The notes beneath the pieces are model-generated. The model ran no database searches and was not told the origin of the DNA. It saw only the letters and a program-made list of their open reading frames with translations. Positions 21,104-50,091 of a stretch of 64,000 nucleotides of DNA are shown here, in pieces. The first letter of the stretch is position 1, and every line of letters starts with the position of its first letter. The translations under genes were made by a program, and so were the position numbers. Origin of the DNA: an uncultured Clostridia bacterium (GTDB lineage: Bacteria > Bacillota > Clostridia > Christensenellales > Borkfalkiaceae); NCBI GenBank assembly GCA_947175485.1, contig CAMWMZ010000001.1, positions 1 to 64,000 of the forward strand, given 5' to 3'.

Positions 21104-21455
21104 TTGAGTTAATTTTACGGTCGCGGGCTATGGAAGTAGCGTGAGGAAAGTCCGAGCATCACAGGGCAAGGGTGCCTGTCAACGGCAGGTGGAGGCGACT
21201 TCAAGGAAAGTGAACAGAAATATACCGCGGTTTTACCGTAAGGTTGGAATGGCGAGGTAAGAGCTCACCGTCCCTTTGGCAACAAGGGGAGCCAATTAAA
21301 CCCCACCCGATGCAAGATTGGGTTGTCGGCTGCTTGAATGCAAAAGCTGCCCGTTTGCCGGCAATCGTTAATATCGCTTGAGCTTGCAGGCGACTGCAAG
21401 ATTAGATAGATGACCGTACACGACAGAACTCGGCTTACAGATTAATCTCAGATTA
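21104..21455 (+). ncRNA. rnpB: RNase P RNA
   Basis: Conserved P4-region core gaggaaagtccgagcatcacagggcaagggtgcc and distal cagaactcggcttacag. Also conserved ggaatggcgaggtaagagctcaccg. A plausible promoter ttgccc-N17-taaaat lies upstream. Ends are approximate. Confidence 0.95.
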
Positions 21456-43252: not shown

Positions 43253-43689
43253 AAATTTATTTGCTTTCCGCGGCGGGCGTAATATTTCTTTCGGTTATTG
43301 TATCGCTGCTGATTCCGGAAGGGAAACTGCATAAGAGTATAACTTTTATAATGAGGCTGATATGTATTTTTGTTTTGATACAGCCTTTAACAGGAATTTT
43401 TAAAATAGGGGATGGCGATACCGCACAGACGGGGAATTTTATAGATTATACTTATGTTAGTTCGGTATATTCAGAACATCAAAGCGCAGAGCTTGAAAAA
43501 TTGATTGATAAGGAATTTGGAGTTGAGACGGTTTGCTCAATAAAAGTCGAGTATATTGACGGTAATTTCAAAGTCACCGAAACGGAGGTCGGGCTTGCGG
43601 AAAATAATGTGAAATTAATTGATGCAATTTACGCATATTTGGTCAAGCTCGGATATATAAATATAACAGTATATGCGCAAAGTACTTAA
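43249..43689 (+). CDS. spoIIIAF: Stage III sporulation protein AF
   Basis: ATGA overlap with AE; two N-terminal TMs; operon position. Confidence 0.8.
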   Translation: MKIYLLSAAGVIFLSVIVSLLIPEGKLHKSITFIMRLICIFVLIQPLTGIFKIGDGDTAQTGNFIDYTYVSSVYSEHQSAELEKLIDKEFGVETVCSIKVEYIDGNFKVTETEVGLAENNVKLIDAIYAYLVKLGYINITVYAQST

Positions 43690-44035
43690 TTTCGTGAACG
43701 ACAATAAAAAAATAATCGTAGTCGTGATACTCATTATTGTGCTTGTAGGGACAATTTATTTTATAAATAAGTCTCAAAAAGACGAAGATACCAAACAGCC
43801 CGCCGCTGTTCAAAAAAGTGCGGCGGAAGTTAAATTGACTGGTATTTTAAGCTCCATTGAGGGCGTGGGTGCGACTGACGTTATGATTAACGAAGGAGAA
43901 AACGGCATTCTCGGTGTTGTGATTGTGTGCGAGGGGGCAAACAATCTGATGACGAGAAACGATATTTTGAACGCCGTTTCAACGGCGCTGAACGTAGATA
44001 AAAAAATAATAGCAATATATTCAATGAATAATTAA
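43673..44035 (+). CDS. spoIIIAG: Stage III sporulation protein AG
   Basis: Single N-terminal TM then ring-forming-type domain (KLTGILSSIEGVGATDVMINEGENGILGVVIVCEGANNLMTRNDILNAVSTALNVDKKIIAIYSMNN). Confidence 0.85.
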   Translation: MRKVLNFVNDNKKIIVVVILIIVLVGTIYFINKSQKDEDTKQPAAVQKSAAEVKLTGILSSIEGVGATDVMINEGENGILGVVIVCEGANNLMTRNDILNAVSTALNVDKKIIAIYSMNN

Positions 44036-44045
44036 GGAGACCATT

Positions 44046-44534
44046 ATGTCAAAGAAGAAAAAAATTATTATCATGTCCTCACTTGTATTTTTACTTGCGC
44101 TGACCGCCGTTTTAAACGTGCTTCTTGCCACAAACGTGATTGCTTCAGGCGATAATTCCGCTGTAACGACGTCGAATTATTTCACAACGTTCCGTTCTGA
44201 AAGAACAACGACGAGAAGTGAAGAACTCGTACAGCTTGACAGCGTAATTGCCCTTTATGAAGAGGGCAGCGAAAAGTATCAGGAAGCAGTTGACCTCAAA
44301 CTTAAAATAGTTGAAATGATGGAAAACGAACTTCTTCTTGAAACTCTTATTAAGTCACGCGGATTTACCGACGCGGTTGTATCGATTGGTATGGATTCCA
44401 ATAACGTGAACGTTTTCGTAAATTCAAGCGAGCTCGATTATAATACGGCGCTTTCTATATACACAATGCTTAAAGACGAAGTAGGCGTAGCCCCCGGCAG
44501 CATAATAATTTTGCCCGTTTATTCACAAGTTTAA
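44046..44534 (+). CDS. spoIIIAH: Stage III sporulation protein AH
   Basis: N-terminal TM; SAVTTSNYFTTFRSERTTTRSEELVQLDSVIA...GFTDAVVSIGMDSNNVNVFVNSSELDYNTALSIYTMLKDEVGV. Confidence 0.93.
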   Translation: MSKKKKIIIMSSLVFLLALTAVLNVLLATNVIASGDNSAVTTSNYFTTFRSERTTTRSEELVQLDSVIALYEEGSEKYQEAVDLKLKIVEMMENELLLETLIKSRGFTDAVVSIGMDSNNVNVFVNSSELDYNTALSIYTMLKDEVGVAPGSIIILPVYSQV

Positions 44535-46220: not shown

Positions 46221-47096
46221 TTGGAATTTAAAGAAAAGTACAATTTTTATCTCAAAGAATTTGAACGAATTTTGGAATGCTTTTGCAATGAAATTAATTG
46301 CAGACCGGAGATATTGGGTGACAGTCTTAAATATAGCTTGTTACTCGGGGGGAAACGTATACGTCCCGTATTAACCTTTGCGACAGCCGATTTGCTTGGG
46401 TTAGAAAGGCGCAAAGCGGTAAATTTTGCACTTGCGATAGAGTTAATTCATACCTATTCACTGATTCATGATGATTTGCCGGAAATGGATAACGACGATT
46501 TCAGACGCGGAAAACCTTCTAATCACAAGGTTTTTGGTGCGGGGAACGCTGTTTTGGCCGGTGACGGACTTTTAAATACGGCGTATTCGGTTTTGCTTAA
46601 AGAATGTAAAAACGGTGCCGAGTATATTTCGGCGGCGCAATTTATTTGCGATTGTGCAGGCATTTACGGAATGATTGCAGGGCAATCCGCCGATCTTTTG
46701 CATGAACACGAAACGAGTTTTAATGAAGCCACGTTGAACTTTATTTATGAAAATAAAACTGGTAAGCTTCTCATGTCTTCGGTTGTTGTTCCGTCTATAC
46801 TAAACGGCGGAAGATGCTATTCGGAATTAAAGACCTTTGGCAGGGACTTAGGCTTGTTGTTTCAGATTACCGATGATATTTTAGACGTTGAGGGGGAATT
46901 CCGTTCGCTCGGAAAGAGTATAGGAAAGGATGAAGCGGAAGGAAAATATACTTCCGTAAGTCTTTACGGGCTTGACGGTGCTAAGCTTCGCGCAGATGTC
47001 CTTGCACAAAGATGCAGGGCTGTTCTGGAGGGAATTGACGGCGACAGGGAATTTATGTTGCAGTTGGTTGATTACGTTCGTTCCCGAAAAAATTGA
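46221..47096 (+). CDS. ispA: Polyprenyl synthetase (farnesyl/geranyl diphosphate synthase)
   Basis: LLLGGKRIRPVLTF; ELIHTYSLIHDDLPEMDNDDFRRGKPSNHKVF; FQITDDILDVEGEFRSLGKSIGKDEAEGK. Confidence 0.95.
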   Translation: MEFKEKYNFYLKEFERILECFCNEINCRPEILGDSLKYSLLLGGKRIRPVLTFATADLLGLERRKAVNFALAIELIHTYSLIHDDLPEMDNDDFRRGKPSNHKVFGAGNAVLAGDGLLNTAYSVLLKECKNGAEYISAAQFICDCAGIYGMIAGQSADLLHEHETSFNEATLNFIYENKTGKLLMSSVVVPSILNGGRCYSELKTFGRDLGLLFQITDDILDVEGEFRSLGKSIGKDEAEGKYTSVSLYGLDGAKLRADVLAQRCRAVLEGIDGDREFMLQLVDYVRSRKN

Positions 47097-47102
47097 AAAG
47101 TA

Positions 47103-47131
47103 TTGACATTTTGACGCGTATATGTTATAAT
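47103..47131 (+). promoter_or_regulatory. Perfect-consensus sigma-A promoter of the large ncRNA
   Basis: TTGACA (47103-47108), N17, TATAAT (47126-47131). Confidence 0.85.
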
Positions 47132-47137
47132 TTTAGC

Positions 47138-47735
47138 AAACTTGTATAGTGGTGCAGTATTCTAGTCAATTTCCACTGAAACGAAGACGGGGGTAAAATA
47201 CCGTTAAAGGGCATATCGATGAAGTTTCTGGTGTTTGCTTGCTTTGCCAAAAGTGGGTGAATGCTGGGAGTAAAGGTGTATGGGAGCTAGGTAACGGCAT
47301 ACCGCAGCCCTCCCCATTCACCGTGGAGGCGCGCAGCCTTAAACGGAGGCGCGTATAAACCTGCTATCAGGCGAAAGCTTGGTACAGAGTAGCCTGCCTT
47401 GAGTGAAAACAGCGGATAACGGAACACGGTTTATTTCGTTCGGCCGGACGAAAGCAACCTATTGCCGTTTGAAATTGATTTTTGCAAAAGAGGATTAGCT
47501 CATTGAAAATTGTCAAGGAAAGCTTCTAGACTGTCTTTATATTAGAGATTAAGGTGTGGACTAAGTGGTGATTCGGTTATGCTTTGCATTCGCGCCCTTA
47601 AAAGGAAACTGCTTCTTCGGCGACGGGAAGTGGGCGTTGAGGGAAATCCTACCGAACCTAAGCCGCAAAGTTTATTTAATATAAACCACTATATTTGTTT
47701 TTATTACGCACGAGAAGAAGTGCGTATTATTTTTA
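47138..47735 (+). ncRNA. ole: OLE (ornate, large, extremophilic) RNA
   Basis: About 600-nt noncoding, GC-richer, structured region between ispA and dxs, directly upstream of a membrane-protein gene. This is the known ole-oapA context in Bacillus halodurans-type loci (nusB-folD-ispA-ole-oapA-dxs-tlyA-argR-recN-spoIVB). Internal helices visible by eye include GGTGAATG..GGGAG / CTCCC-CATTCACC (47256-47322) and AGTGG/CCACT. Ends are approximate. Confidence 0.87.
47705..47734 (+). terminator. Terminator-like hairpin at the 3' end of the OLE RNA
   Basis: TACGCAC-gagaagaa-GTGCGTA followed by ttatttttt-like U-rich tract. Confidence 0.6.
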
Positions 47736-47739
47736 AATT

Positions 47740-48360
47740 ATGGATACTGATACACAAAGATTGCAAACAAAAAAAGAAAACAAGGAAGAGCCGCCAAGTC
47801 GCGGCGTAAAAAAGAAAAAACACAAAAAAAAGCATAAGTACGCTTGGTTAACGTGGGGAATTACTGTATTCTTCATATCGTTTGCCTTGACCGTGCTTTT
47901 TAGTTTTTTAACGGAAATTGCGGTAAAAGACAGCGCGGCGTTCGTTTGCGTTATGGTTTTATTCGTATTGCTGATATTAAATATCGGTTGTGATTTGCTT
48001 GCGAACGCGATTATGTCGTGCAGTCCCGAAGCGTATCACGCAATGGCTTCCAAGAAAATCAAGGGGGCAAAGCGTGCAGTGGTTTTTTGCCGTAATGCAA
48101 GTAAGCTTTCAAGCATTTTTGCAGACGTAATAGGAGATATTTGCGGAATTGTAAGCGGTGCCGCAGGTGCGGCGCTTGCCGTTCATCTTGCTTTTAACGG
48201 CACAACGGGACAGCTTATCGCTTCTATAGGAGTAAGTGCGGTAATAGGCGCGTTAACTGTAGGAGGCAAGGCGCTTTTTAAGCACTTTGCCGTGACTTTC
48301 AATAAACAGATAGTATTCGGCTTTGCCAGATTTACTACCTTCTTTATAAAGGAAAGGTAA
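47740..48360 (+). CDS. oapA: OLE-associated membrane protein (OapA-like)
   Basis: 206 aa; Lys-rich basic N-terminus (KKKKHKKKHKYAW) then several TM segments (WGITVFFISFALTVLFSFLTEI, AAFVCVMVLFVLLILNIGCDLLANAIM). Located directly downstream of the OLE RNA and abutting dxs. Confidence 0.85.
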   Translation: MDTDTQRLQTKKENKEEPPSRGVKKKKHKKKHKYAWLTWGITVFFISFALTVLFSFLTEIAVKDSAAFVCVMVLFVLLILNIGCDLLANAIMSCSPEAYHAMASKKIKGAKRAVVFCRNASKLSSIFADVIGDICGIVSGAAGAALAVHLAFNGTTGQLIASIGVSAVIGALTVGGKALFKHFAVTFNKQIVFGFARFTTFFIKER

Positions 48361-50091
48361 ATGCTTGAAAATATAACGGGTGCGCAGCTCAAAAAAATGA
48401 CTTTGAAAGAGCTTTTGGCTCTTTGCGAGGAAGCGAGAGAAATTATTACACGAACCGTTTTAAAAAACGGCGGACATTTGTCTTCCAACCTCGGAACGGT
48501 CGAGCTTTCTGTTGCGCTTAATTATGTATTTGATTTTCCTAAGGATAAGCTTGTTTTTGATGTCGGGCATCAGTGCTATACTCATAAACTGCTTACGGGA
48601 AGATATTTCGAATTCGATACCATTAGGCAGAAAGGCGGAATATCAGGCTTTCCAAAGAGAGCGGAGAGCGAATATGATTGCTATAATGTTGGGCACGCGG
48701 GGACTTCGGTTTCCGCGGCTTTAGGTATTGCAAAAGCAAGAGATATTAACGGCGAAAATTTCAACGTTATTGCATTAATCGGCGACGGTTCGTTTAATAA
48801 CGGGCTGATTTATGAGGCTTTTAACAGCTTAAGACTTCTTAATACTAATATTTTACTTATTTTAAATGATAACGGAATGTCTATTGCTCCGACGGTTGGC
48901 AGCATGCACGAGTATCTGGAAATCTTAAGCGAGGATATTACACAAAAACATAAAAAAGACCGTCATGCAAAAATTTTTGAAAGATTCGGTTTCGAATATG
49001 ACGGCGTTTACGACGGTAACGACCTTGAAAAAATGATTTCAAAACTTGAGGAAATCAAGGAAAAACTTAAAACGCAATCTGTTATTTTGCATGTTTTGAC
49101 AAAAAAAGGTAAGGGATATTCGTTTTGTGAAGAAAATCCCGAGGTTACACACGGCATAACCAATTCTACGGAAAAGGTTGATGAATATTCTGAAATTTTA
49201 GGTAAAACGTTAACCCGCCTTGCTGAAAAGGATAAAAGAATAGTTGCCGTTACTGCGGCGATGACGTCGAGTCTTGGGCTTTCGGAATTTTTTGAAAAAT
49301 ATCCTGACCGTTCGGTTGACGTTGGTATATGCGAAGAACACGCTGCGATTTTATGTGCATCGATGGCGACGGAAGGATTAAAGCCCTATTACGCGGTTTA
49401 TTCTACTTTTTTGCAAAGATCGTTTGACGAAATAATAATAGATATTTGCAGCCAGAATTTACCTGTGACGCTTTGCATTGACCGTGCCGGGATTTCCGGT
49501 TCTGACGGCGAAACGCATCAGGGCGTTTTTGATTTGTCTTTTTTGAGTTTTATACCAAATTTGACTATTGCCGTACCGAAAGATATAAGCGAATTTGAAA
49601 AAATGCTTGAATTCAGTGCTGAATTTAACGCCCCCTTAGCGATAAGGTATCCGCGCTCGGGTAATAAGATTTTTAATAAAAGAGACGAAATATTATGCGG
49701 TCAATGGGAGAAATTAACCGAGGGTGACGGAAAGTATGCTTTAATCGCTTGCGGTGAAAGGGCGATAAACTGTGCTTTAAATGCAGAAAGTTTATTGCGT
49801 GAAAAAGGAGTGCGTCTTTCGGTTATCAACGCTTGTTTTGTGAAGCCAATGGATACGGAAACGCTTGATAGCTTAAAGGAAAAATTTATTTTAACCGTTG
49901 AAGATAATATGCTTATCGGCGGTTTAGGTTCTTTAATAAACACTTATTTTTCGGCGGAAAATAAAATAATTAAGAATTTCGCATATGCGGATGACTTTAT
50001 TCCGCAAGGCGGGGTATCCGAGCTTATGGAAGAATTAGGATTAAGCGCGGAGAAAATCGTTGATTATATTTTAACAAATGAGAATAGATAA
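48361..50091 (+). CDS. dxs: 1-deoxy-D-xylulose-5-phosphate synthase
   Basis: GGHLSSNLGTVELSVALNYVFDFPKDKLVFDVGHQCYTHKLLTGR; IGDGSFNNGLIYEAFN; CIDRAGISGSDGETHQGVFDLSFL. Confidence 0.97.
   Translation: MLENITGAQLKKMTLKELLALCEEAREIITRTVLKNGGHLSSNLGTVELSVALNYVFDFPKDKLVFDVGHQCYTHKLLTGRYFEFDTIRQKGGISGFPKRAESEYDCYNVGHAGTSVSAALGIAKARDINGENFNVIALIGDGSFNNGLIYEAFNSLRLLNTNILLILNDNGMSIAPTVGSMHEYLEILSEDITQKHKKDRHAKIFERFGFEYDGVYDGNDLEKMISKLEEIKEKLKTQSVILHVLTKKGKGYSFCEENPEVTHGITNSTEKVDEYSEILGKTLTRLAEKDKRIVAVTAAMTSSLGLSEFFEKYPDRSVDVGICEEHAAILCASMATEGLKPYYAVYSTFLQRSFDEIIIDICSQNLPVTLCIDRAGISGSDGETHQGVFDLSFLSFIPNLTIAVPKDISEFEKMLEFSAEFNAPLAIRYPRSGNKIFNKRDEILCGQWEKLTEGDGKYALIACGERAINCALNAESLLREKGVRLSVINACFVKPMDTETLDSLKEKFILTVEDNMLIGGLGSLINTYFSAENKIIKNFAYADDFIPQGGVSELMEELGLSAEKIVDYILTNENR

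Follow-up and report, generated by a model that had tools for sequence, protein, structure and literature searches.

The open reading frame at positions 47740 to 48360 of the window (the whole 64,000-nt stretch of DNA analysed here) very probably encodes the established membrane partner of OLE RNA, OapA, and comparison with its relatives points to the cytoplasmic loop between TM2 and TM3, not to the polybasic N-terminal tail, as the part tied to OLE and thus the better candidate for docking it. The OapA identity, proposed earlier in a sequence-only reading of this DNA, is well supported by synteny, the DxxxD signature, a CNNM-like profile and fold, and co-occurrence with OLE, and is as firm as sequence allows. 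By size, OLE ranks near the top among bacterial RNAs whose function is unknown. According to the literature, OapA binds OLE and is required to localise it to the membrane, and the OLE ribonucleoprotein (RNP) helps cells cope with cold, alcohol, Mg2+ and poor carbon sources; corresponding functions of the present protein are predicted from its sequence. The locus comprises the following features:

46221 to 47096, plus strand: ispA-type polyprenyl synthetase gene, upstream flank of the OLE-oapA slot
47103 to 47131, plus strand: sigma-70 type promoter, TTGACA-17-TATAAT with TG extension, 12/12 match, directly 5′ of OLE and conserved in the genus
47133 to 47705, plus strand: OLE RNA (RF01071), full model 1-616, 393 bits
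47705 to 47735, plus strand: intrinsic terminator-like hairpin, TACGCAC (8-nt loop) GTGCGTA with U-tract, between OLE and oapA
47740 to 48360, plus strand: oapA, 206-aa four-helix membrane protein adjacent to OLE
47809 to 47838, plus strand: polybasic juxtamembrane block KKKKHKKKHK (residues 24-33), within the 35-residue N-terminal tail
47992 to 47994, plus strand: D85, invariant in 116/116 OapAs and retained in OLE-less OapAs
48043 to 48093, plus strand: cytoplasmic loop M102-R118 (MASKKIKGAKRAVVFCR), whose conserved basic patch follows OLE presence; proposed main OLE-docking element
48124 to 48138, plus strand: DxxxD signature of OapA (D129, D133), equivalent to D100/D104 of H. halodurans
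48268 to 48282, plus strand: K177 and K181, both invariant, on the last of the long helices
48361 to 50091, plus strand: dxs, abutting oapA

The gene had been described as lying immediately 3′ of the RNA and abutting dxs, and this is confirmed: its coordinates are exact, the ATG follows the OLE RNA end by 35 nt (47705 to 47740), and the TAA stop touches the dxs ATG at 48361. No Shine-Dalgarno sequence was seen upstream of this ATG, and an SD-like 4-mer precedes oapA in 8 of 42 related genes, compared with 59% of ORFs in the source genome; with the alternative in-frame TTG start at 47761 the basic block would be retained, too. Gene order in the window is typical of an OLE operon (spoIIIAG-like, spoIIIAH, asp23, nusB, folD, ispA, OLE RNA, oapA, dxs, tlyA-like), and genes resembling nadK, argR and recN, judged by their translations only, lie 3′ of the tlyA-like gene. 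Both spoIIIAH (44046-44534) and the spoIIIAG-like gene (43673-44035) are retained near OLE in this 1.6-Mb genome. The window also holds an intact class A RNase P RNA (21105-21454, 238 bits). An ORF at 47579-47809 overlapping the 3′ half of OLE was judged to be an accidental product of the conserved RNA. In OLE-bearing members of the genus such as G242, G283, G366, G370 and G156, a divergent dxs located elsewhere in the genome, away from oapA, gives the best dxs match.

Comparison with a family HMM had been proposed for checking the identity, and no OapA model was found in Pfam or NCBIfam; we therefore tested the published defining traits of OapA instead and searched for homologues with a profile built from 20 relatives. 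The homologues lie mostly beside OLE: the RNA adjoins oapA in 77 of the 80 profile-found loci scanned, and of the three exceptions one locus is cut by a contig end within OLE, and another belongs to a genome whose OLE lies on a different contig. Of 121 genomes of the order, 77 contain OapA, 67 contain OLE and 65 both (Fisher p=4e-19, not corrected for phylogeny). OLE and oapA sit on separate contigs and are apparently unlinked in family f14 (L347, L348, L349), and in two genomes (G041, G083) OLE is present with oapA undetected. Five residues, D85, D129, D133, K177 and K181, are identical in 116/116 OapAs from genus to phylum; published work singles out the DxxxD pair as a hallmark of OapA, with D100A/D104A mutants made in H. 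halodurans.

Basic conservation in OapA is concentrated in the TM2-TM3 loop (K106, K111, R118) and the last helix (K177, K181). Within the loop, which includes MASKKIKGAKR as residues 102-112, position 106 is K or R in 100% of 116 homologues, position 111 in 92% and position 118 in 88%. To our knowledge, the site at which OapA grips OLE has been mapped on the RNA side only. A natural comparison is offered by OapAs that lack the RNA. In families f6 (5 genomes) and f8 (2 genomes) of the order, oapA still lies 3′ of an ispA-type gene, with 3 to ~90 nt from the end of the ispA frame to the oapA frame, and OLE was found neither genome-wide (strict filters) nor near oapA at E-values up to 0.1. Family f28 has a second, OLE-less oapA copy 3′ of a proS-like gene, and genome G052 holds two oapA copies, of which only the first is adjoined by OLE. 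These OLE-less loci (L334-L343, L350) indicate that OapA can occur apart from OLE, contrary to the near-exclusive pairing published, according to which OLE and OapA may never appear independently.

OLE-less OapAs retain D85, D129, D133, K177 and K181 without exception. What they lose is the loop motif MAxKKxxGAK: on a six-point score, 108 of 116 OLE-linked OapAs reach 5-6, whereas the 11 OLE-less ones score 1-4. Loop net charge is still positive in most of them (median +4 vs +5), so that the motif was lost rather than the charge. Basic tails are mostly retained (e.g., MDKRSKKSRNARRKRRNV in f6). Compared with OLE-linked relatives of the order, no significant difference was seen in tail charge (p=0.08), whereas loop charge differs (p=1e-4), neither value being corrected for kinship. 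The two f8 proteins are exceptional on both counts, with a tail net charge of -2 and much of the loop kept. Since OLE-less relatives mostly keep basic tails and lose the loop motif, the loop is preferred over the tail as the putative docking element. In a tree of core columns the OLE-less OapAs fall into three groups, strongly supported branches forcing only one origin; the OLE-less lineages number only ~3, and divergent OLE may have gone undetected elsewhere in them. With an assurance slightly below an even chance, we suggest that the CNNM-like OapA outlives its RNA, that at least two lineages lost OLE from this operon but retained oapA, that the decay of loop residues 102-112 marks the docking site, and that the tail is separate and independent of OLE. 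If so, OapA would have an RNA-independent function. OLE-less OapAs allow asking what the membrane module does alone, and the comparison of OapAs with and without OLE pinpoints a short segment (102-118) for mutation.

The N-terminal tail had been noted as highly basic and Lys-rich ahead of the TM segments, and it is indeed extreme: among 63 multi-TM ORFs with an N-terminal helix in stretches totalling 452 kb, our background for genome statistics, the segment before TM1 of OapA ranks first in basicity, with 8 K/R per 11 residues (next best 6, median 3). The last 15 residues ahead of TM1 carry a net charge of +4 to +10 in 43/43 homologues of the genus, the distal part of the tail is mostly acidic (median net -3), and identity among these 43 members is 32% in the tail vs 72% in the core. 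The median tail grows from 10 aa with 3 K/R across the phylum (69 homologues) to 26 aa with 7 K/R within the order (29 homologues) and 38 aa with 11 K/R in the family set, lengths that are approximate because start codons were picked by rule. This increase supports the view that the tail arose by lineage-level expansion from a short and weakly basic N-terminus common across the phylum. Of the suggestion that the tail is a lineage-specific RNA-contact element, the lineage-level elaboration is thus borne out; a specific contact with OLE is not supported, as no position is conserved and OLE-less OapAs mostly keep basic tails.

Two narrower readings of the tail were weighed. It may serve purely for topology and as a lipid anchor (positive-inside rule, anionic lipids) with no role for RNA, a reading that we regard as possible but somewhat doubtful: the tail adjoins TM1 directly, and OLE-less OapAs of the order have similar tails (median 5 vs 6 K/R in 15 residues; net charge, Mann-Whitney p=0.08), but it far exceeds that of other membrane proteins in the genome (rank 1 of 63) and is strongest in the OLE-bearing genus. 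Conversely, the tail itself might contact OLE, e.g., at P2/P4a. Its extreme rank within the genome, the retention of charge rather than sequence among the 43 genus members (32% vs 72%), which is the pattern expected for an electrostatic contact, and its position on the same membrane side as the loop, if TM1 begins in the cytoplasm, would fit. Nevertheless, we consider such a contact unlikely, given that the tail has no conserved positions, that many OLE-bearing lineages have short or almost uncharged tails, and that OLE-less OapAs mostly keep a basic tail, such as KRSKKSRNARRKRRN in f6.

OLE itself occurs as a single copy in the 1.6-Mb genome (97% complete). The promoter directly upstream matches the consensus at 10-12 of 12 positions at every readable locus of the genus; across the order and phylum, 51 of 78 loci have at least 10 matches, compared with 3% of shuffles. 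At the other end, the terminator-like hairpin (fold z-score -3.1), whose core occurs only once in 452 kb of the source genome, is found in 41 of 43 genus loci (among L175-L241), with a conserved stem sequence and a free loop sequence, and oapA begins immediately 3′ of its U-tract. The hairpin is absent from the sister genus (G128) and rare beyond the genus (12 of 78 loci, the window counted). Own promoter and conserved hairpin together suggest that the genus makes OLE as a separate, terminated transcript, an arrangement of which we found no description in the literature consulted on OLE. Alternatively, the hairpin could be a 3′-end stabiliser or processing site, with OLE and oapA always co-transcribed. 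This corresponds to the H. halodurans cluster, which is reported to be polycistronic with OLE processed at its 3′ end; however, stem and U-tract at 41 of 43 genus loci, the conserved stem with its free loop, and the separate upstream promoter make it rather improbable here. Two OLE matches of only ~410-420 nt, L201 (G344) and L049 (G129), both lie at contig ends and are probably truncated there, not real variants.

In Pfam, the ORF showed one similarity of note, to CNNM (PF01595), at 20-21.8 bits, which is below the cut-off of 28.4 (E=1.6e-4); true CNNM proteins of the genus score 141-194 bits. A sub-cut-off CNNM similarity of OapA was also reported by Fernando and Breaker (PMC11332333). Searches of PDB sequences with the protein and with its profile gave no match. 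The structural comparison proposed in the sequence-only reading agrees with OapA: an AlphaFold2 model (pLDDT 84) predicts four long helices (H35-64, H67-93, H120-153, H156-186), and the fold search against PDB returned first the archaeal CNNM protein MtCorB (7m1t; probability 1.00, TM-score 0.41, at a weak E-value of 0.07) and nothing else credible. Dali likewise gave MtCorB for H. halodurans OapA (PMC11332333). OapA is further marked by lack of the proline conserved in CNNM domains, which may also hold here: in the protein as read by itself, unaligned to the CNNM column, no proline follows the P95-P97 region. That the ORF is instead a fragment or relative of an MpfA/CorC transporter is hardly credible in spite of CNNM being its one notable Pfam similarity, given the score far under that of the CNNM proteins of the genus (20 vs 141-194 bits), the invariant DxxxD, the four long helices, and the absence of a CBS or CorC_HlyC domain, for neither of which there is space ahead of dxs.

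MpfA was proposed as a functional stand-in for the OLE RNP (PMC11332333), and its distribution in the genus fits this proposal. Among 93 genomes, OLE was found in 50, and OLE or oapA in ~54 after inspection of contig ends, with four genomes that were initially OLE-negative (G313, G333, G349, G369) counted as positive as their contigs end inside OLE. Thirty genus genomes, none of them OLE-bearing, contain CNNM proteins as long as a full MpfA, and the proteins examined have CBS and CorC_HlyC domains. No complete MpfA was found in the source genome or in the ~54 genus genomes bearing OLE or oapA; 26 of the 30 OLE-less genus genomes placed in the tree contain one. At 31 OLE-less loci ispA directly continues into dxs, as though OLE-oapA had been excised. 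About 12 OLE-bearing genus genomes carry a shorter CNNM protein, L283-L290 being such proteins of 307-360 aa in genomes with OLE or oapA, and CorC_HlyC was absent in all five of the shorter proteins scanned (four with OLE, one with oapA and a cut OLE). On the genus tree the exclusion amounts to ~1-3 events (three changes, at most three independent pairs), so that, despite an overwhelming-looking Fisher test, it is consistent with the published anticorrelation rather than independent proof of it. With OLE and MpfA in alternate members, OLE-oapA cleanly absent from the MpfA bearers and OLE apparently its own transcription unit, the genus constitutes a compact system for testing the equivalence of OLE and MpfA.

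Of the further RNP partners for which a genome search had been suggested, OapB was found and OapC was not. OapB was located by synteny as a 99-aa protein between map and infA, with 7k9b, ‘OLE-associated protein B’, as its best PDB match (E=2.9e-6). The KOW domain (PF00467) was rejected as a route to OapB, since its one clear match is to the L24-type ribosomal gene in the spc operon, the others being weak. The L7Ae family (PF01248) had no match in the source genome or in four other genus members, hence no OapC; it is not required, being present in only ~45% of OLE organisms according to published data. Growth of the tail in compensation for the loss of OapC is an unsupported idea, since tails in the L7Ae-less order genomes G009, G052 and G113 range from ordinary to very long. 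Apart from OapA, no CNNM protein was found in the source genome.

Taken as a whole, the following account appears quite probable to us. OapA would be the membrane anchor of the OLE RNP, a CNNM-like membrane module built on D85, the DxxxD pair and two invariant lysines, and this D/K core may perform metal handling. OLE RNA would be held at the cytoplasmic face chiefly via the conserved basic TM2-TM3 loop (M102-R118), with the enlarged polybasic tail contributing electrostatic attraction of an unspecific kind to anionic lipids and perhaps RNA. OLE would be transcribed from a consensus promoter of its own up to the putative terminator, and the oapA-dxs mRNA would arise by read-through; we propose that the levels of an abundant OLE and a scarcer oapA mRNA are thereby set separately. 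The OLE RNP would substitute for CorC-type MpfA proteins.

Among known systems, the closest is OapA of Halalkalibacterium halodurans, which shares the gene position directly 3′ of OLE, the small multi-TM architecture, DxxxD, the CNNM-like character and a conserved cytoplasmic basic cluster (PMC12265935, PMC11332333, PMC9723947). Different here are the 29 additional residues before DxxxD (D129 vs D100), the strongly polybasic tail, the terminator-like hairpin that parts OLE from oapA in the source genus, and the lack of a detectable OapC in the source genome. The MpfA/CorC/CorB family of Mg2+ transporters (CNNM-CBS-CorC_HlyC) is distantly similar in the membrane domain, both in sequence and in predicted fold; the ORF, with DxxxD and an RNA partner and without CBS or CorC_HlyC, is not a member of it. 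The OLE-less OapAs of f6, f8 and f28 share D85, DxxxD, K177 and K181 and, in f6 and f8, the same ispA-oapA slot, but differ in that OLE is gone and loop residues 102-112 are degraded, the f28 protein being a second-copy paralogue near a proS-like gene.
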